In this document: positions 437 to 22,761 of the stretch, piece by piece
Position numbering within the stretch: position 1 is the stretch's first letter
Layout of the letters: each line of letters begins with the position of its first letter
Virus record (IMG/VR): IMGVR_UViG_3300010392_000286
Span: 1 to 29,253 of that record
From: a virus
Length of the DNA: 29,253 nucleotides
Strand: one strand, 5' to 3'
The notes under the pieces: model-generated
The model's input: only the letters and a program-made list of their open reading frames with translations
Databases searched by the model: none
What the model was told of the DNA's origin: nothing
Made by a program: the position numbers and the translations under genes

Positions 437-474
437 ACTCTACACTAAAAATCTCATTAAGTGGTTTGACCAGT
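437..474 (-). promoter_or_regulatory. leftward shared-motif promoter of the annealing gene
   Basis: On the minus strand, ACTGGTCAAACCACT (474-460) is followed by a 17-nt spacer and a weak -10, TAGAGT (442-437, four of six matches to TATAAT). The start codon lies 25 nt further on. The same element and spacing recur at 6026, 16385, 20212 and 22724. No good -35 hexamer is present, which suggests an activator site in its place. Confidence 0.6.
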
Positions 475-5837: not shown

Positions 5838-6026
5838 ATGAAAGTAAGAATAACAGCAACAGAAATAATCAGGTATTCGAAAGTTGTCGATATGACAGAG
5901 GATGAATTCGACGAGTTTCAAAATGACCTAGAAGACTTTGGTGCAGATATTGTTGGAGACATGATGAGTAAAGGCGATATTCAAGACGGCGAATGGGAAG
6001 ATGTCGAAGCTTGGCGCGACGACTAA
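5838..6026 (+). CDS. small acidic hypothetical protein (62 aa)
   Basis: ATG 5838 is 7 nt after GAGG; the overlapping GTG at 5835 is too close. Very acidic (MTEDEFDEFQNDLEDF, DGEWEDVEAWRDD). Small acidic phage proteins are sometimes DNA mimics or inhibitors of host enzymes, but there is no direct evidence here. Its stop codon overlaps the first base of the shared-motif promoter at 6026. Confidence 0.6.
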   Translation: MKVRITATEIIRYSKVVDMTEDEFDEFQNDLEDFGADIVGDMMSKGDIQDGEWEDVEAWRDD

Positions 6027-6063
6027 CTGGTCAAACCACAAAACAAAATTAACCCGTTATAAT
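6026..6063 (+). promoter_or_regulatory. rightward shared-motif promoter
   Basis: ACTGGTCAAACCACA (6026-6040), 17-nt spacer, perfect TATAAT (6058-6063). The start codon follows 26 nt later. The hexamer at the -35 position is ACCACA, only three matches to TTGACA. This is the only clear rightward copy of the element; the others drive leftward genes. Confidence 0.7.
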
Positions 6064-6089
6064 GGGTGAAACTAATGGAGGGAATGAAG

Positions 6090-10981: not shown

Positions 10982-11346
10982 TCTACGGTCCTGAAGGCTT
11001 CGAGCTAACCGGTCAACAGGTTGCCATAGGCGGTAAGTCGGGACCGGCAGCAAAAGAGGCGTTCGAGAAGAAAGAGGCCCGCACGGATGGCAAACCAAAG
11101 TATCGAGGCAAGCGCGACAAAGACGCATTTGACCCGACAACAGTTAGAAGTGATACCAGCCACGAGGCATGGTTACGCAGACAGCCTAGATGGTTTGTTG
11201 AGTCATCGCTTGGTACTACAAGGGCCAAACTGTTTCTTGACGGCAAATTATCGCTATCCAAATTCACCGATATGACGGGCCGCACAATCACATTAAACGA
11301 GCTTGAGCAAGAGGAATCGACAGTATTTAAGCGATTGGGCTTGTAA
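10894..11346 (+). CDS. head morphogenesis protein, 3' part in the -1 frame
   Basis: The overlapping frame carries 'RFKADDPKLPIPPLHPNCRSTL', the conserved end of the Mu F/SPP1 gp7 domain, followed by about 110 residues ending RLGL. Read in continuity with the previous entry, the junction is roughly 'CRTNSRN' to 'RFKADDPK'. The sequence at the junction (AAGAAACGG) is not a classic X XXY YYZ heptamer, but one extra A in the run would restore the frame. The ATG at 10894 lies inside the upstream frame, so independent translation of this piece is doubtful. Confidence 0.65.
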   Translation: MPHQLKKRFKADDPKLPIPPLHPNCRSTLIYGPEGFELTGQQVAIGGKSGPAAKEAFEKKEARTDGKPKYRGKRDKDAFDPTTVRSDTSHEAWLRRQPRWFVESSLGTTRAKLFLDGKLSLSKFTDMTGRTITLNELEQEESTVFKRLGL

Positions 11347-11360
11347 GTGGTTAGACCAGT
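11346..11360. promoter_or_regulatory. orphan copy of the shared 15-bp element
   Basis: AGTGGTTAGACCAGT on the plus strand, ACTGGTCTAACCACT on the minus. It overlaps the stop of the head morphogenesis gene, 36 nt before the portal start. Unlike the other copies it has no leftward gene and no -10 at the fixed spacing (AAATAC). A second dyad, CTGGT-N8-ACCAG, lies at 11424-11441 inside the portal gene. Confidence 0.5.
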
Positions 11361-14922: not shown

Positions 14923-15441
14923 ATGCGTGAAGTTGATATTGATTACTTAAACAAAATACTTAGATACGACCCAGAAACTGGCGACTTGTATTGGAGAGGG
15001 CTTGACCATAAGCCGAAATACATACAGACAAGATACGCCAACAAGAAGATATCAGGCTCTGTATCAAATGGATACAAGAGAGTAAAAATAAACGGAAAGC
15101 ACATATTCGCACACAGGATAGCTTTTGCTCTTTATTACGGCGCATTCCCATCTAAATATATAGACCACATAAGTGGCGACACTTTGGATAACAGGATAGA
15201 AAATCTCAGAGAGTGCAGCTTAAGCAATAATCAAAGAAACAAGAGATTAAACAAAAACTCAACGACAAAATATACAGGGGTCGGTTTTCATAAAATGTCT
15301 GGCAGGTGGAGAGCTTATGCAAGCGACAAAGGTAAGCAGGTACACATCGGCAATCATGATGATTTTTACGACGCGGTAAAGGCAAGGGAAGAGTACAGCA
15401 TGAAAAACGGATTCACTAATAGACATGGCGCGAGAAAATAA
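14923..15441 (+). CDS. free-standing HNH homing endonuclease with AP2-like domain
   Basis: 172 residues. Residues about 60-105 hold 'HIFAHRIAFALYYG', 'YIDHISGDTLDNRIENLRECSLSNNQRN', the HNH_3 catalytic core: D81-H82, N90, N94 and the closing N residues. Residues about 115-160 ('KYTGVGFHKMSGRWRAYASD...IGNHDDFYDAVKAREEY') form an AP2-type DNA-binding domain, as in many phage homing endonucleases. Such genes spread by cutting alleles that lack them. It sits between coat and downstream head genes with its own promoter and terminator on both sides, an insertion in the late operon. Confidence 0.88.
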   Translation: MREVDIDYLNKILRYDPETGDLYWRGLDHKPKYIQTRYANKKISGSVSNGYKRVKINGKHIFAHRIAFALYYGAFPSKYIDHISGDTLDNRIENLRECSLSNNQRNKRLNKNSTTKYTGVGFHKMSGRWRAYASDKGKQVHIGNHDDFYDAVKAREEYSMKNGFTNRHGARK

Positions 15442-15445
15442 AGAA

Positions 15446-15469
15446 AGCCCTGCTTATGCGGGGCTTTTT
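15446..15469. terminator. bidirectional terminator between the HNH gene and cassette A
   Basis: AGCCCTGC (15446-15453), loop TTAT, GCGGGGCT (15458-15465, one G-T pair) and TTTTT on the plus strand; on the minus strand the hairpin is followed by TTTCTTTATTTT. It lies across the stop codon of the leftward gene ending at 15454, so it serves both converging transcripts. Confidence 0.75.
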
Positions 15470-15741
15470 GTTATGCTTGCATTGTAATGGAGTAGTGGCG
15501 GCAACCCTTCATCAAGCTCCACATAGTGCCACATTTTGTTGAGATAGAAATAGTGTCGCTTGCCCTTTCCAATCTGCTTGATGCGCGCTTCCCAGTACGG
15601 GACATCTATTGATCTCCATGTGCCGCCATCAAAGCTGGATACACCACCACTTACTCCACTTGCACTTATCCACTCGCCGCCATAACCGCCACCGTAATGA
15701 TTTGCGACTTCCACGCCGTTTACTGCTATTTCTTTAAACAT
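15454..15741 (-). CDS. cassette A gene 4: hypothetical protein (95 aa)
   Basis: ATG 15741 overlaps the stop of the upstream leftward gene by one base (TGATG). Glycine- and aromatic-rich: 'NHYGGGYGGEWISASGVSGG' then 'WEARIKQIGKGKRHYFYLNKMWHYVELDEG'. Predicted beta-rich and soluble, with no recognised family. Last gene of the leftward cassette; its 3' end lies in the bidirectional terminator. Confidence 0.6.
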   Translation of the reverse strand: MFKEIAVNGVEVANHYGGGYGGEWISASGVSGGVSSFDGGTWRSIDVPYWEARIKQIGKGKRHYFYLNKMWHYVELDEGLPPLLHYNASITKSPA

Positions 15742-15902
15742 CACTTGCCATCCCTATCCTTTAATGCCCAAACAAGCCTTTCTAGCTCACCAAGGCTAAA
15801 ATGACCACTAAGACATATGTCGTCCAAATCTTCCGCGTCAATATGCGGAATGCTTGATTCGTGCAAATCTCTGAATACGTATTCGTAATCTTCCTCGCTC
15901 AT
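15741..15902 (-). CDS. cassette A gene 3: small acidic protein (53 aa)
   Basis: ATG 15902 lies 9 nt after GAGGG on the minus strand. Acidic helical product (MSEEDYEYVFRDLHESSIPH, then EDLDDICLSGHFSLGELERLVWALKDRDGK). It overlaps both neighbours by 1-4 nt. No family recognised. Confidence 0.6.
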   Translation of the reverse strand: MSEEDYEYVFRDLHESSIPHIDAEDLDDICLSGHFSLGELERLVWALKDRDGK

Positions 15903-16072
15903 TGCTTGCCACCCTCTACACAAACGTATCCAATTAAGGCTCTAGCTATCTCGCCTTCACACCCAATTGCCGCATCAAAGTAAAAATACAAATTAATCGT
16001 TATAGGTATAATTATTACCGCAGCAATTAAAGCCGCGTATGCTTTCTTGCCTAATTTGTTTATCCAATCCAT
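15899..16072 (-). CDS. cassette A gene 2: small single-pass membrane protein (57 aa)
   Basis: Minus-strand ATG at 16072 overlaps the upstream stop, and its own stop overlaps the next ATG (ATGA). Basic N-terminus (MDWINKLGKKAY) followed by one hydrophobic segment, residues about 11-32 (AALIAAVIIIPITINLYFYF). A tail of about 25 residues contains two Cys (38 and 51). It looks like an uncleaved signal-anchor or small inner-membrane protein, possibly with a periplasmic disulfide. It is too short for most gene callers but has clear overlaps on both sides. Confidence 0.6.
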   Translation of the reverse strand: MDWINKLGKKAYAALIAAVIIIPITINLYFYFDAAIGCEGEIARALIGYVCVEGGKQ

Positions 16073-16353
16073 CACTTAACCCTCACTTTGTAGCCTAGTG
16101 CTTTGAAGTATTCAAACTGCAACTCAACACCATCCAAAACAAGCACATAACAATCTCTTGCTGGTGCTGTAAATTGGCCGCAAGACTTTTTCATTACGTG
16201 GTCATATAGGTGCGTAACTGTAATATCACCATTGTCATTAATATCATCTATATGAACGGTATGTGTCCAATCTTCTCTATCAATGAAGCCTGGTGTTCTG
16301 AATATCGCAATATCACCTTTTATTGGCTTTCTTCTTACGCCCCTTGCAATCAT
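16072..16353 (-). CDS. cassette A gene 1: hypothetical protein (93 aa)
   Basis: Start at ATG 16353, 6 nt after GGAG; a TTG at 16365 is upstream in frame. 'PIKGDIAIFRTPGFIDREDWTHTVHIDDINDNGDITVTHLYD' is beta-rich and recalls small SH3-like or hydrolase-like barrels ('GDi.if......wtHv.iv'). Cys62 and Cys72 are present, but no catalytic Cys-His pair in the right order can be shown. First gene of the leftward cassette, just downstream of the 16385-16422 promoter. Confidence 0.65.
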   Translation of the reverse strand: MIARGVRRKPIKGDIAIFRTPGFIDREDWTHTVHIDDINDNGDITVTHLYDHVMKKSCGQFTAPARDCYVLVLDGVELQFEYFKALGYKVRVK

Positions 16354-16384
16354 TCCATTCTCCAAATTTGCCTAAACTCTAGCC

Positions 16385-16422
16385 ATTATAGTAAACTGTA
16401 CGTAACAAGTGGGCTAACCAGT
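16385..16422 (-). promoter_or_regulatory. shared-motif promoter of cassette A
   Basis: Minus strand: ACTGGTTAGCCCACT (16422-16408), 17-nt spacer, perfect TATAAT (16390-16385); start codon 31 nt further. The -35 position reads CCCACT. The element ends 9 nt before the start codon of the rightward gene at 16432, so the promoter fills the whole gap between the divergent genes. Confidence 0.72.
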
Positions 16423-16581: not shown

Positions 16582-17185
16582 CTACCCATCGGAAAATGGC
16601 CATTACATTTCGACAGGTAAAGACCCGTCGAAGTCTCGTATGGCTACTGATAACCAGCAGGCATCGTTTGAGAACAACTTACAGTTTAAGTTCTTCGACG
16701 ACTGCAGCGGCGCGGATGCTATTGCTGATACTGATATTCTCATCTATCGGTTTGCAACTGTTTACCCGCTAAAACTACAGCTACGCCTGATTAACGGATG
16801 GGCAGGTGGCCGTAAGTATATTGTTTACCCGTTCACCGGTAGCGAGACTATCGGCGGCGGCACGTGGACAGACGTAACAAGCACCAAAGTTTCGCCGATT
16901 AACAATGACCTATCTGTTAGTGGCTTGGCTTCGCACCCTACAAGCGGCGTGACCATTGAGAAGCGCCTTGCAACGTCATTCAGCACAACGGCACCAAAGC
17001 GCACAGGTACGTCTTACCTTGTGCCAACATCGGGCGGTGGTAGCCGAGCGACTTCAAGCTACACGGCAAGCGGTAATGCGTCAGGCGTGGCAGCGGGTAA
17101 TACTTTCCTGTTGGTGTTTACGAACATCAACGGCACAACAGATAGTGAATTTCTTTATCAACTCGAATGGGAGGAGGCGCAATGA
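16574..17185 (+). CDS. head-associated structural protein (203 aa), putative decoration or fiber
   Basis: ATG 16574 gives 203 residues; the longer frame from 16511 runs through the previous gene. Beta-rich, Gly/Ser/Thr-rich throughout ('GGTWTDVTSTKVSPINNDLS', 'SGGGSRATSSYTASGNASGVAAGNTFLLVF'), with 'KLQLRLINGWAGGRKYIVYPF' suggesting a jelly-roll or Ig-like surface domain. Its position between coat and connector genes, next to the beta-helix gene, suggests a capsid surface protein. Confidence 0.55.
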   Translation: MANYPSENGHYISTGKDPSKSRMATDNQQASFENNLQFKFFDDCSGADAIADTDILIYRFATVYPLKLQLRLINGWAGGRKYIVYPFTGSETIGGGTWTDVTSTKVSPINNDLSVSGLASHPTSGVTIEKRLATSFSTTAPKRTGTSYLVPTSGGGSRATSSYTASGNASGVAAGNTFLLVFTNINGTTDSEFLYQLEWEEAQ

Positions 17186-19092
17186 GCTTCAGGTATCGCA
17201 ACTTTAAATTAATCGGCCTGAACTTCTCAGGCATTCCGACCATGTGGTCGTACACCACTGACGATACGATTGCCCAGGTTACTGCTGAGGGGTACTTCGA
17301 CGACCCTCGCCTAGATGTTGAGCCGGTTGATATTATCAAAGTCCAGGCCTCCGACGGCCCCTATGAGGTGCAGTTGGTTGGGGGTGTAGCAAGCGTTGTG
17401 ATTGGCACTGTTGGTAATGAGATTAATATACTGCAATATGGCGCATCATCGAATGATATTGGCCCTGCCTTACTGAAAGCTTGGAATGAATTAAAATCAG
17501 TGGGCGGCACAATATACATTCCTTCTGGATTAGTTAAGAGTAGCCAGCAGGTTTTCGGCAGAGCATCGCAGACGGTAAAGATCGTATCTCAAGGATTATG
17601 TAAAGTTCAGCCAACTGAAAGTCCAATGGTTGGCTATATGTGGGAGTTTGACAATGAATCAGGCGTTACGCATGTTGAGTTTCATAATGTGCAAATCGAC
17701 GGGCAAGTAACACCAGGCTCAGACGCAAGCGCGAGATTTGTTTTTGATGGTGTTTTGGTTGGTAGCTCAAACAATCTAGTTGTGGACAATTGCTTCGGTA
17801 GATTCGTTGATGGGCGAGCTTGGGAATTCCGGCGTTGCCATAATTCAAAGATTGACATCAAGACCTACAAGTCAGGAAATGCGTCCAAGTCATCAGTTTT
17901 TCATACCGGCGACCCAGCGACAGGTGATGTTTTTAATGATGTTTTAATCTCAGGTACGGGCGAGAGAGATATTAACGGGTGGGCGTTCGAAGGTGGCACA
18001 TTATTGCGCACAAAAGAAGAGCTAAAAATTCACGGCTCCCCAGACTCACTCAGAGGGTTACAGATTCTAAGGGTTGCAGATTTTGACATCGAATGTAAGC
18101 CGACTTTGGATTATGGTAAGGACGGCTTTATATATGTTGGCGACTCATCCAATGCAGAAGGGTTAACGCTTGAGGTTGCGCAATCAGCGGGGAATGTGAC
18201 TAGGGGCACGTTGAAGGTAAACAATCACTATAACTGCAACTCTGTGTTAACCACTGGTAATGCCGACCTTGTGAAGATTGATTGTGGCACAGCAAACAGC
18301 GCTGTTATGGTTACAGGGATATTTAAGTCAATTACAAGCGCAGGGGCGACGGTTAGTGCAATCGGCTTGGATGCTGGAAACAATGCCGCATATATAGATC
18401 TCACCGGCGTTAGATTTGCTGGCGCTGACTCGTCTTTAGTTGTTAGGGATGGTAGAGCATCACAGCGAGCTATAGCAATGAGAGGTGTGGACCGTTCAGT
18501 AACAGGGAATTCTGATACGTTGCTGCTTTCATTCAACGGATATAGAACGGTTGGTGATACCGTCTCGTTTAACACTAGCGGTAATGGTGAGTTGCCACCG
18601 TTGAAATTTGAGACAACCTGCTTTGAAAACGCAGCGTTTGGCAGCTACGGTCAGCGCTTTGTCGAGTCATTCAAATTCGGCTCCACATCTGGCGTTACTA
18701 CAAGCGCAATTGTCGCCCCGTCAAAGTATTTGATAGCGGCTGCTGATTCATCTGGCAATCAATGCCCATCTGACCTAGAAAGAATACAGATAGGCGCGAC
18801 AGGCGTTACGGCATCACATGATGACGCTAATTTTTGGCGGGTCGATATATACCAATCTACAACGTTAGTTCACTCTCTCGCCGTGACCATGGATCCGTCA
18901 CCAACAAGCACAAGCGAAACGCCCGACAGGATAGCGGGAAATAGCACGAGAGGGCAGGTTATGGATTATTGGGAGAATATCGACACGAGATACCTAAAAG
19001 GAAATTTCTTTTCCATTGAACTTGTCAAGGTTGGCTCTCCTGCCGATATAGATGACTTAATGGTTACAACACAGTACGTGATTAGAACATAA
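17182..19092 (+). CDS. capsid-anchored right-handed beta-helix protein, putative head fiber
   Basis: ATG 17182 behind GGAGGAGG gives 636 residues. N-terminal module 'MSFRYRNFKLIGLNFSGIPT' to about residue 70 is a short beta domain. Then 'INILQYGASSNDIGPALLKAWNELKSVGGTIYIPSG' (about 78-113) is the classic entry to a pectate-lyase-like beta-helix ('...v.dfGA.gDGvtDdt.ai..A......g..v.ipaG'). Repeating beta rungs ('VEFHNVQIDG', 'LVVDNCFGRFVDG') follow to about 480. The C-terminal part is a beta sandwich-like domain ending 'DLMVTTQYVIRT'. The fold suits glycan binding or cutting; its location among head genes is odd for a tailspike. Confidence 0.7.
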   Translation: MSFRYRNFKLIGLNFSGIPTMWSYTTDDTIAQVTAEGYFDDPRLDVEPVDIIKVQASDGPYEVQLVGGVASVVIGTVGNEINILQYGASSNDIGPALLKAWNELKSVGGTIYIPSGLVKSSQQVFGRASQTVKIVSQGLCKVQPTESPMVGYMWEFDNESGVTHVEFHNVQIDGQVTPGSDASARFVFDGVLVGSSNNLVVDNCFGRFVDGRAWEFRRCHNSKIDIKTYKSGNASKSSVFHTGDPATGDVFNDVLISGTGERDINGWAFEGGTLLRTKEELKIHGSPDSLRGLQILRVADFDIECKPTLDYGKDGFIYVGDSSNAEGLTLEVAQSAGNVTRGTLKVNNHYNCNSVLTTGNADLVKIDCGTANSAVMVTGIFKSITSAGATVSAIGLDAGNNAAYIDLTGVRFAGADSSLVVRDGRASQRAIAMRGVDRSVTGNSDTLLLSFNGYRTVGDTVSFNTSGNGELPPLKFETTCFENAAFGSYGQRFVESFKFGSTSGVTTSAIVAPSKYLIAAADSSGNQCPSDLERIQIGATGVTASHDDANFWRVDIYQSTTLVHSLAVTMDPSPTSTSETPDRIAGNSTRGQVMDYWENIDTRYLKGNFFSIELVKVGSPADIDDLMVTTQYVIRT

Positions 19093-19682: not shown

Positions 19683-19851
19683 CTTTTAGGGCTGCCTCTA
19701 CTTTTTCTACACACTCTTCCGCGCACTTTAGCTCGGCAATAAGTTGCTCTTCACAGGAGAGTGGCAACGACTCTATTAGTTTCTTTTTGCTTTTGTAGTC
19801 CGCTATCGCTAGAGAAATAGGCAGCATCCTTAGTGGTGTTAAGTCAATCAT
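19636..19851 (-). CDS. cassette B gene 2: hypothetical protein (71 aa)
   Basis: Start placed at minus-strand ATG 19851, just after AAAGG and overlapping the upstream stop by 8 nt; the frame is open further up. Helical product with 'LIESLPLSCEEQLIAELKCAEECVEKVEAALKATL' (two Cys pairs three to four residues apart), probably a coiled coil. The 3' end runs antisense into the connector gene, so its tail is less certain. Confidence 0.5.
   Translation of the reverse strand: MIDLTPLRMLPISLAIADYKSKKKLIESLPLSCEEQLIAELKCAEECVEKVEAALKATLSESVKDTCHPDQ
19674..19706. terminator. weak hairpin at the left end of cassette B
   Basis: AGAGG and AGC (19674-19683, two unpaired bases between) pair with GCT and CCTCT (19691-19699), followed by C and TTTTT at 19702-19706. 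The imperfect 8-bp stem straddles the connector stop codon. On the plus strand it could attenuate late transcription before the cassette. Confidence 0.4.
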
Positions 19852-20182
19852 TACCTTTGACCTCTCGCACTTCAATGATATTTCGATACATGCTAAAAAA
19901 CCCAATTCGCCAACCGTAAACCTTGGCGTTGTACGTCTTGCCCTCCTTTAGCTCGCCTTGAATGTCAGCGCTGTTAAACTTGAATCTGAATATCGTATCT
20001 ACATTCTTAAACACTTCAATGTCTGTAAATATCACCCATTTGCTCGACGTTGAATCCCCGCTTCCGGTTACAATGCGCTCCTTACTTTCAACGGTAAATG
20101 TTACATAATCCTCTGTGCCAAAGTTATACAAAGCCGAAATTGCAAAAAAGAATAAAAATATTCCTGTGTAAATTTTACCCAT
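19844..20182 (-). CDS. cassette B gene 1: membrane-anchored small protein (DUF1523-like pattern)
   Basis: Start at ATG 20182, 6 nt after GGAG, gives 112 residues. A signal-anchor (residues about 2-22, GKIYTGIFLFFFAISALYNF) is followed by 'YVTFTVESKERIVTGSGDSTSSKWVIFTDIEVFKNVDTIFRFKFNS' and 'LKEGKTYNAKVYGWRIGFFSMYRNI'. This strongly recalls small prophage or plasmid-borne proteins with 'k.ylift..EvfeN.Dsl...KfnS.d.yg.l..Gk.Y...vyG.Ri.flS.YrNi'. Those are membrane-attached with a periplasmic beta domain and unknown function. It is a likely lysogenic-conversion or exclusion gene. The exact DUF number is from memory. Confidence 0.65.
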   Translation of the reverse strand: MGKIYTGIFLFFFAISALYNFGTEDYVTFTVESKERIVTGSGDSTSSKWVIFTDIEVFKNVDTIFRFKFNSADIQGELKEGKTYNAKVYGWRIGFFSMYRNIIEVREVKGND

Positions 20183-20211
20183 GACTATCTCCAATTGTTA
20201 AAGTCAAATGC

Positions 20212-20250
20212 ATTGTAGTACACTATCTGTATATTAGTGGTCTAACCAGT
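20212..20250 (-). promoter_or_regulatory. shared-motif promoter of cassette B
   Basis: Minus strand: ACTGGTTAGACCACT (20250-20236), 18-nt spacer, TACAAT (20217-20212); start codon 29 nt further. The right edge of the element is 8 nt from the start codon of the rightward gene at 20259. Confidence 0.68.
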
Positions 20251-21010: not shown

Positions 21011-21405
21011 GCGCAAGCACGTTACCAGCGGAAGTTATCCGCACTGCACTAATTGATAATGTGCTTACTGGCTATCATCATGCTATTTTCTGGGATGATT
21101 CAGCGCTGCCATTCACTAATGATAGCGTGTCAATCTGTTTGGTTAACGCTACCGGCAGAGAATCAAACACCGACACCGCTCGATACCTTATTCAGGTGAC
21201 GCTATTTAGTGATGTGTCAGAGTTGCCCGATGATTGGCTTACTTTGGTGAATGATGCGACAAGCTGCCAAACATACCTATTTAACAACTTGTCGTATGAT
21301 AGCGGCACCATGAAAGTGGTTAACACCGCCGAATCAGTTGGACGACCTATGCGCACAGGCTCAGGCCGGTGGATGGTTAGGTTTTCTGTGAATGTTGAGT
21401 GTTAG
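21007..21405 (+). CDS. tail terminator-like protein
   Basis: 132 residues. 'PAEVIRTALIDNVLTGYHHAIFWDD' then 'VSICLVNATGRESNTDTARYLIQVTLFSDVSELPDDWLTLVNDA', a helix plus beta-sheet layout seen in tail terminators (gpU/gp17-like). The position just before tail tube genes supports it. Its last 29 nt overlap the convergent moron gene ending at 21377. Confidence 0.6.
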   Translation: MSASTLPAEVIRTALIDNVLTGYHHAIFWDDSALPFTNDSVSICLVNATGRESNTDTARYLIQVTLFSDVSELPDDWLTLVNDATSCQTYLFNNLSYDSGTMKVVNTAESVGRPMRTGSGRWMVRFSVNVEC

Positions 21406-21775
21406 TCAGATACCGCTTCTTGTCTATATAATCTTTACCACCAAACCTTAACTGCTCTCTCCAAGAGCCATTCATGTATATCTTCCTTGACGCTGCGTTT
21501 ATGTATGTATACCTGTAAAATTGGACTCCACATGAAAGACAGATGCTTGTCATCATCTCGTCATGGCTTATCTCGCATAAGCACTCAGGACATAGAACTA
21601 CAGGCTCCCAATTTGTATAAGCCGGGCCTTTGCAGTTATCATTCTCTGGTTTGCCTTCGGCTCTTTTCATGGCGACCGTGTTAATGAGTTTTTCCATATT
21701 GTCGCTTGTGCGCTTCTCGTATACAAAAACAAAACCCGCAACAACGAAAATTAGTATCAATATTGTTTCAATCAT
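21377..21775 (-). CDS. cassette C gene 5: membrane-anchored zinc-ribbon protein
   Basis: 132 residues. N-terminal transmembrane segment (about 2-19, IETILILIFVVAGFVFVY), then a cytoplasmic or periplasmic stretch. A zinc-ribbon-like set of cysteines follows: CPEC (62-65), Cys67, and CLSCG (79-83), with 'HDEMM' between. The C-terminal domain is basic (YINAASRKIYMNGSWREQ). It overlaps the upstream gene by ATGA. Function unknown; a membrane zinc-ribbon protein in a moron is a candidate for host-envelope or anti-phage activity. The 3' end is antisense to the tail-terminator gene. Confidence 0.62.
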   Translation of the reverse strand: MIETILILIFVVAGFVFVYEKRTSDNMEKLINTVAMKRAEGKPENDNCKGPAYTNWEPVVLCPECLCEISHDEMMTSICLSCGVQFYRYTYINAASRKIYMNGSWREQLRFGGKDYIDKKRYLTNTQHSQKT

Positions 21776-22056
21776 AATCCATCCCTCGAATTCTCAGCGT
21801 TAACCAGCGCCGAGCAAAGTGCGTTTATGTAAATGCGCAAGCCTCCGGCAACAAGCGGCCAATCACATTTTTTATGCTGGCTCATATCATACCAACCAAC
21901 AATGCACCCAAGAGCGAATTCGCTGCCATTTTCTGCGCTAATGAATCTGTATCCATCAAACGTTACGCTGTGAAGTTTTGGCCCAGTAGAAACACCAATC
22001 AATGCCACATGCTTGGGCGGCAACTGCTCCGATACTAATTTAAATGTTCCGCTCAT
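21772..22056 (-). CDS. cassette C gene 4: hypothetical protein (94 aa), DUF551-like pattern
   Basis: 'FKLVSEQLPPKHVALIGVSTGPKLHSVTFDGYRFISAENGSEFALGCIVGWYDM' resembles short phage proteins of the DUF551 type ('Wi.vseqLPp....Vlv........v..g.yr..........vthWmp'), which are frequent among accessory phage genes. ATGA overlaps on both sides. Soluble and beta-rich by inspection. Role unknown. Confidence 0.6.
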   Translation of the reverse strand: MSGTFKLVSEQLPPKHVALIGVSTGPKLHSVTFDGYRFISAENGSEFALGCIVGWYDMSQHKKCDWPLVAGGLRIYINALCSALVNAENSRDGL

Positions 22057-22244
22057 AATCCCTCCCGTGGGTCTTCTAAGAAAAAAGTTTTGCCATCATC
22101 TACAGACTCTGTTGCGTGCAAAACTGCATCGAAATTAGCTTTTGCAATTGCAAATCCTACTAAATCGTTTACCTCAAGCCTTCCGATAGCCAAATCCTTC
22201 AACCGCTCAAGCTCTTTCTTTTTTCTTTCTTTAAAGTCGCTCAT
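22053..22244 (-). CDS. cassette C gene 3: hypothetical protein (63 aa)
   Basis: Lys/Glu-rich helical N-terminus (MSDFKERKKKELERLKDLA), then 'NDLVGFAIAKANFDAVLHATES'. ATGA overlaps with both neighbours. No recognised family. Confidence 0.58.
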   Translation of the reverse strand: MSDFKERKKKELERLKDLAIGRLEVNDLVGFAIAKANFDAVLHATESVDDGKTFFLEDPREGL

Positions 22245-22471
22245 TCTTCACCCCTGTAAAAAATAACACCATTAACCGAAACATAATCAAGCAAATCAGC
22301 ATCGTGTGAAGTTGTAACTTCTGCGTATGATTTTACTGTTACGCGGTCATATTCTGGTACTTTTTCAGTGAATGTTATTTCGCCTGTTGACTCAAGTCTA
22401 GCAGTTACAATGCTAGGCGTGCAAAAATCCCCTGCCACCTCAAGAGAGGCCAAGTAAAACACACCGTTCAT
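22241..22471 (-). CDS. cassette C gene 2: hypothetical protein (76 aa)
   Basis: Minus-strand ATG 22471 after GGAAGAACA. Beta-rich product: 'SIVTARLESTGEITFTEKV', 'VTVKSYAEVTTSHDADLLDYVSVNGVIFYRGEE'. One Cys, no membrane segment. A 26-nt gap separates it from gene 1. Function unknown. Confidence 0.58.
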   Translation of the reverse strand: MNGVFYLASLEVAGDFCTPSIVTARLESTGEITFTEKVPEYDRVTVKSYAEVTTSHDADLLDYVSVNGVIFYRGEE

Positions 22472-22497
22472 TGTTCTTCCGTCATCAAGATCGGCTT

Positions 22498-22701
22498 TTA
22501 CCTTGATTCTTTTCCTGAATTGCGCGATTTAATAAGCTTTGATGCTTTTTCTGCGTCGAGTGTTTGCATTAAAATCTCAGTCAGCTTGAGTTTTGACTCA
22601 TTAAAAAAACTCAACCACTCACGGCTCTTTCTTGTGTCGACTTCTAAATCATTGCTGACTGATATGCTAATAATCTCACGTTTTTCTAATTTCAATTTCA
22701 T
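22498..22701 (-). CDS. cassette C gene 1: hypothetical protein (67 aa)
   Basis: Start at ATG 22701, 6 nt after GGAGGG; the frame from 22725 would begin inside the -10 region. Charged, helical (MKLKLEKREIISISVSNDLE, then 'FFNESKLKLTEILMQTLDAEKASKLIKS'). First gene of the five-gene leftward cassette. Family not recognised. Confidence 0.58.
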   Translation of the reverse strand: MKLKLEKREIISISVSNDLEVDTRKSREWLSFFNESKLKLTEILMQTLDAEKASKLIKSRNSGKESR

Positions 22702-22723
22702 TTTATACCCTCCTAAAAACCCC

Positions 22724-22761
22724 ACAATACCATAAATATTGCGTCTAGTGGTTTGACCAGT
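22724..22761 (-). promoter_or_regulatory. shared-motif promoter of cassette C
   Basis: Minus strand: ACTGGTCAAACCACT (22761-22747), identical to the 460 copy, then a 17-nt spacer and TATTGT (22729-22724). The start codon lies 22 nt further. The -10 is only four of six, fitting a need for an activator. Confidence 0.62.

Follow-up and report, generated by a model that had tools for sequence, protein, structure and literature searches.

Four leftward open reading frames (ORFs), referred to here as cassette A, lie with the coat gene on one side and the following head-tail gene on the other in the phage of the IMG/VR record IMGVR_UViG_3300010392_000286. The window (W), i.e. the whole stretch of DNA that was analysed (29,253 nt, positions 1-29,253 of the record), encodes NinB, an O-like initiator, the DnaB helicase, terminase, portal and scaffold, as well as a P22-type coat, tail tube, tape measure and tail fibre. 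The tail fibre is ~41-47% identical to the fibres of Pseudoalteromonas, Alteromonas and Idiomarinaceae siphophages, which makes W likely to be a marine gammaproteobacterial siphovirus.

With ORF starts reset to those best backed by Shine-Dalgarno (SD) sequences and homologues, cassette A comprises, all on the minus strand, A1 (16072-16353, 93 aa), A2 (15899-16072, 57 aa), A3 (15741-15902, 53 aa) and A4 (15454-15741, 95 aa). The four overlapping leftward genes announced by the original prediction are all present, and every junction between them is an overlap (TGATG, ATGA and TGATG), as would be expected of a coupled operon. A2 has one hydrophobic stretch (mean Kyte-Doolittle value of 2.18 across 19 residues) and is, as proposed for the 57-residue product, a predicted single-pass membrane protein, while A3 is very acidic, with a net charge of -10. 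The earlier statement that none of the genes has a recognised function holds in Pfam, PHROGs and PADLOC, which provide no credible match for A1-A4. The Pfam hits to CHAP for A1 and to SecD_SecF_C for A2 were far below the cut-off and have been rejected, and AlphaFold2 models of A4 and A1 (mean pLDDT of 36 and 48, respectively) were unusable.

Both predicted borders of the block were confirmed at the level of signals. A hairpin of 12 pairs (15442-15469), with a T run on the plus strand and a T-rich minus side by eye, forms a predicted terminator that closes cassette A as well as the coat side, where an HNH/AP2 endonuclease gene (14923-15441, plus strand) separates the coat gene from the cassette. 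At the opposite end, the element ACTGGTTAGCCCACTT (16407-16422, minus strand) and a presumed -10 hexamer TATAAT (16385-16390, minus strand), spaced 32 nt from the element's start, constitute the predicted promoter upstream of A1. The GC content of cassette A is 42.5%, compared to 50.5% in the coat gene and 47.4% downstream.

Gene content and joints of the slot in related phages

Two related phages, B and C, were located through A4 and the gene downstream of cassette A; phage B is represented by four contigs, which are identical across the shared stretch, and the comparison within W's own group comprises three distinct cassettes (W, B and C). In B and C, too, four leftward genes form a block that lies between the coat and this downstream gene. 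The original prediction regarded the block as a unit to be found present or absent in relatives: its position is indeed kept, but the gene set is mostly different. The leftward ORFs are of 93-57-53-95 aa in W, 113-64-101-103 aa in B and 49-121-55-101 aa in C, and only A4 is common to all three, A3 being shared by W and C and the remainder being different. Conservation of the block in all relatives, together with a requirement for virion assembly, was the outcome named in advance as incompatible with the prediction; we observe that the content differs among W, B and C.

Purifying selection acts on the shared ORFs. The identity of A4 is 64% between W and B, 66% between W and C and 52% between B and C, with dN/dS of 0.24-0.40, and A3 is 83% identical to its only homologue, in phage C, with dN/dS of 0.2. 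No homologue was found for A1 and A2, except that the C-terminal end of A1 (ALGYKVRVK) recurs in otherwise different ORFs of B and C. Among viral contigs, A1 had no match and the A4 profile retrieved only those of B and C. Among isolated phages, A3 and A4 had no match and A1 only a weak one (Bordetella phage FP1, E-value 0.1), in a stretch that runs opposite an annotated gene; a DNA search with W 13.7-19.1 kb against the same phages yielded 0 matches. Scans of genome contigs retrieved distant relatives of the tail fibre only, and none of the downstream gene.

The turnover of ORFs in cassette A falls exactly between conserved signals, namely two joints and the terminator, of which a near-identical hairpin is present in B and C. 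Joint J1 (16354-16422, minus strand) extends from the promoter to the ribosome-binding site; as far as the start codon, it is 91-96% identical in B and C. Joint J2 (16070-16098, minus strand) is 29 nt long and spans the last codons of an ORF, an SD sequence and the start of the following ORF, which overlaps the first; W, B and C share it without a mismatch amid unrelated flanks, and it was not found in the remaining viral contigs of the collection. The coat proteins of W and B belong to different families (phrog_283 and phrog_247, respectively), hence the slot is independent of the type of coat. The closest relatives exhibit other fillings and no empty version of the slot. Farther away, among isolated relatives, counter-oriented genes follow the major capsid protein (MCP) gene in the Alteromonas phages PB15 and XX1924 as well as in Pq0, PHS3, SL25 and 1N2-2, and the slot is empty only in the distant GJ44, in which there are none.

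A shared promoter class and an accessory slot

The element ACTGGTYNRMCCAC occurs in 6 copies in W, against 0.003 expected, and recurs in phages B and C; in 5 of the 6 copies in W, the distance from the start of the element to that of a TAnnnT hexamer is 32-33 nt. Besides the copy of cassette A, one (459-474, minus strand) precedes the leftward recombination operon, whose exonuclease-like, Holliday-resolvase and SSB genes were read from L191, a contig that is 99.8% identical to W across 11.2 kb and extends beyond it. Another copy (6026-6041, plus strand) precedes a rightward block starting at 6066, one (11345-11360, minus strand) lies upstream of the portal gene with a weak -10 only, and two more (20235-20250 and 22746-22761, both on the minus strand) precede sister cassettes. 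Thus, the promoter described earlier as self-contained does head cassette A, but its class is not private, being shared with the recombination operon and other cassettes. Recombination-operon genes are usually early, and co-expression of cassette A with the genes behind this promoter class is a better reading of the arrangement than independent expression from a prophage.

Two genes found beside copies of the element deserve mention in their own right. A 54-aa protein encoded at 540-704, divergently from the recombination operon and next to the element at 474, resembles a ribbon-helix-helix regulator by eye and has no Pfam match; in phage B, the first gene behind one copy (L110:15287-15994) encodes a pentapeptide-repeat-like protein.

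The sister cassettes exhibit the same sporadic pattern. Sister cassette B (19.7-20.2 kb) contains a DUF1523-type gene (19844-20194, minus strand). Phage B lacks this cassette, and the genes that flank it in W are contiguous there; such an empty site reveals an insertion between genes that are adjacent in a relative, as expected of a moron. Of the five leftward ORFs of the other cassette (21377-22725, minus strand), phage B possesses a homologue of one only (21772-22056).

We consider it somewhat probable (roughly 0.62) that the four genes of cassette A make up a moron-like accessory operon, which occupies a fixed slot, exchanges its content at the joints and is expressed together with the recombination operon. 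The slot is bordered by the coat side and by the following head-tail gene. A phage promoter of the shared class would drive transcription of cassette A in the direction opposite to the structural operon, and the hairpin probably stops this transcription and closes the coat side as well. Recombination at J1, J2 and the terminator may add or exchange ORFs and, because the joints carry expression signals, a captured ORF would be expressed at once. Co-expression with the recombination operon and with the other counter-oriented cassettes is most likely, and the shared promoter class suggests that it takes place early in infection. The products would be host-takeover or counter-defence factors. More specific roles, i.e. 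superinfection exclusion for A2 and DNA mimicry or an antitoxin function for A3, are guesses based on size, charge and hydropathy. It should be added that the signals around variable ORFs could also be conserved because expression itself is under selection, with no recombination taking place there.

Morons of lambdoid phages are extra genes located between conserved genes, with their own promoter and terminator, deviating composition and sporadic distribution. Cassette A resembles them in all these respects, with a predicted promoter and terminator, variable content and a GC content below that of its neighbours; on the other hand, its promoter belongs to a phage-wide class and several of its ORFs are swapped piecewise between conserved joints. 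A further trait of morons is independent expression, e.g. from a prophage, whereas for cassette A co-expression with the recombination operon is the likelier reading. The original prediction of a moron is thus partly supported: it was right on the anatomy and variability, including the replacement of content at a locus that is no conserved virion module, but the superinfection-exclusion, anti-defence or conversion roles that it offered are unproven, and its account of regulation is incomplete, as the promoter class is not private to the cassette.

Short conserved boundary sequences between exchangeable genes are also known from the lambdoid nin region and from the linkers of T-even phages. J1 and J2 are comparable to these, being short, identical or highly similar blocks with expression signals at the edges of exchanged ORFs; they differ in that they lie inside one counter-oriented cassette of a marine siphophage, and recombination at them is inferred. 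Relaxed homology-driven mosaicism due to Rad52-like recombinases is established in temperate phages of E. coli (PMC3945230), and homology-driven exchange by phage recombinases may likewise take place at the joints of cassette A. The small genes that follow MCP in PB15, XX1924, PHS3, SL25 and Pq0 share the slot and orientation of cassette A but lack homologues of A3 and A4; the blocks of PB15 and XX1924 lie behind an ACTGGTC-type element, whose right half differs from that of W. With the slot defined by identifiable joints, reading the sequence between these and the matching promoter element provides a way to gather the accessory genes of this phage group.

Possible FadR-like operators and other explanations

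FadR, a sensor of long-chain acyl-CoA, is a regulator of bacterial fat metabolism. A possible, albeit tentative, interpretation of the shared element is that it represents a FadR-type operator, by which the promoters would be switched by host FadR or by a FadR-like DNA-binding domain of the phage that lacks a ligand domain; this adds to the explanation of the cassette and does not replace it. With a matrix built from eight published FadR sites, including no phage sequence, PB15 and XX1924 have 8 and 9 sites at 13.5 bits or more (best 19.9), and 10 and 9 sites at 12 bits or more, compared to a shuffle mean of 1.6 and a maximum of 4. The counter-oriented blocks of both phages are preceded by AACTGGTCGGAGTTGTT-type elements, and their promoter elements are among the best-scoring sites, but some sites fall inside genes. 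Most FadR-like sites in PB15 (L114) and XX1924 (L115) were observed to precede gene blocks of either orientation directly. The FadR-like site of the Shewanella fabA promoter, a probe of which is bound by FadR (PMC4537474), differs from the PB15/XX1924-type element in one base out of 15, and (C/A)ACTGTTCAGAGTTGTT occurs ~77 nt before FabA in two gammaproteobacterial genomes (G355 and G146); of 40 regions upstream of fabA, the majority are devoid of a FadR-like site. Among the viral stretches caught by the motif, 16 out of 27 have at least two such sites.

A candidate for a phage-borne FadR domain is encoded by phage B: a 107-aa protein whose best matches in the PDB are FadR (E-value 1e-5), with HGKPTK conserved, and whose Pfam GntR score of 20.3 bits does not reach the cut-off of 27. 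By sequence, it is a solo GntR-type winged helix without a ligand domain, and the last codons of its gene (L099:7318-7641) hold a copy of the promoter element. A similar solo protein of 80 aa, also without a ligand domain, is encoded in another related record (L112:4192-4434 in G002), and a solo GntR-type domain is weakly detectable in PB15. At an E-value of 1e-3 no GntR match was found in W, PB15 and XX1924, a result that we list on the side of the FadR interpretation.

For the window itself the agreement is only suggestive, as the left half-site and geometry agree and the right half does not. As in FadR-activated fabA promoters, there is a CTGGTC-type half-site and a distance of ~32-34 nt from the start of the site to the -10 (PMC4537474, PMC4259882). 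In contrast to them, the right half-site in W is ACCACT instead of WGTT, which accounts for the low scores of the elements in W, B and C (9-11 bits, no better than shuffles). Since the matrix does not part these elements from background, we do not claim FadR membership for the window. In 369 gammaproteobacterial genomes, the W motif shows no enrichment (8 exact matches, fewer than for the reversed control). A literature search of partial coverage retrieved nothing relevant on FadR at phage promoters. The wider proposal, that the promoter network of this marine phage group, cassette promoters included, is built on host FadR operators and that some members possess a sensor-less FadR domain, is one that we put forward as a speculation with less than even odds. 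If true, phage expression would read or override the fatty-acid status of the host via one well-studied regulator.

Returning to the accessory operon with exchange at its joints, the HNH/AP2 gene raises the question of what drives the exchange. Its product (HNH_3, E-value 8e-14; AP2 weak and below the cut-off) is predicted to be an HNH homing endonuclease on the basis of its domain and sporadic presence, and cassette A could be hitch-hiking cargo if this endonuclease drove exchange of the coat-to-tail junction. The gene directly adjoins cassette A, HNH or AP2 genes follow MCP also in PB15 and 1N2-2, and W and B differ in the coat family on one side while having 85-90% related genes on the other. 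Nonetheless, we find this explanation unlikely, as B and C contain a variable cassette and no HNH gene at that place, and the gene lies outside the terminator common to the three cassettes. It is quite improbable, too, that A3 with A4 (or A2) forms a toxin-antitoxin or DNA-mimic pair, so that the cassette would have an addiction or anti-restriction module at its core: A3 is small and acidic, overlaps A4 and is kept together with it in W and C, but A4 occurs without A3 in phage B and no family match supports any of the four ORFs. An essential, conserved role in virion assembly, which the location inside the structural operon and the conservation of A4 in three phages might suggest, is very hard to reconcile with the differences in gene content among close relatives, which largely refute it, and with the lack of an A4 homologue in any isolated phage.

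Apart from cassette A, two of the related records may be assembly chimeras or joined genomes: G003 (IMG/VR 3300027758_000008, 73.5 kb) contains two related phage genomes, and G002 (IMG/VR 3300027790_000027, 67 kb) a second related stretch. Finally, the protein encoded at 17167-19092 of the window and its counterparts (L001:3006-4619 in phage B and L092:1933-3414) have a related N-terminal part and unlike C-terminal bodies, which by eye are β-helix-like in the window and SGNH-hydrolase-like in the other two, making them candidates for an exchanged surface or receptor module.
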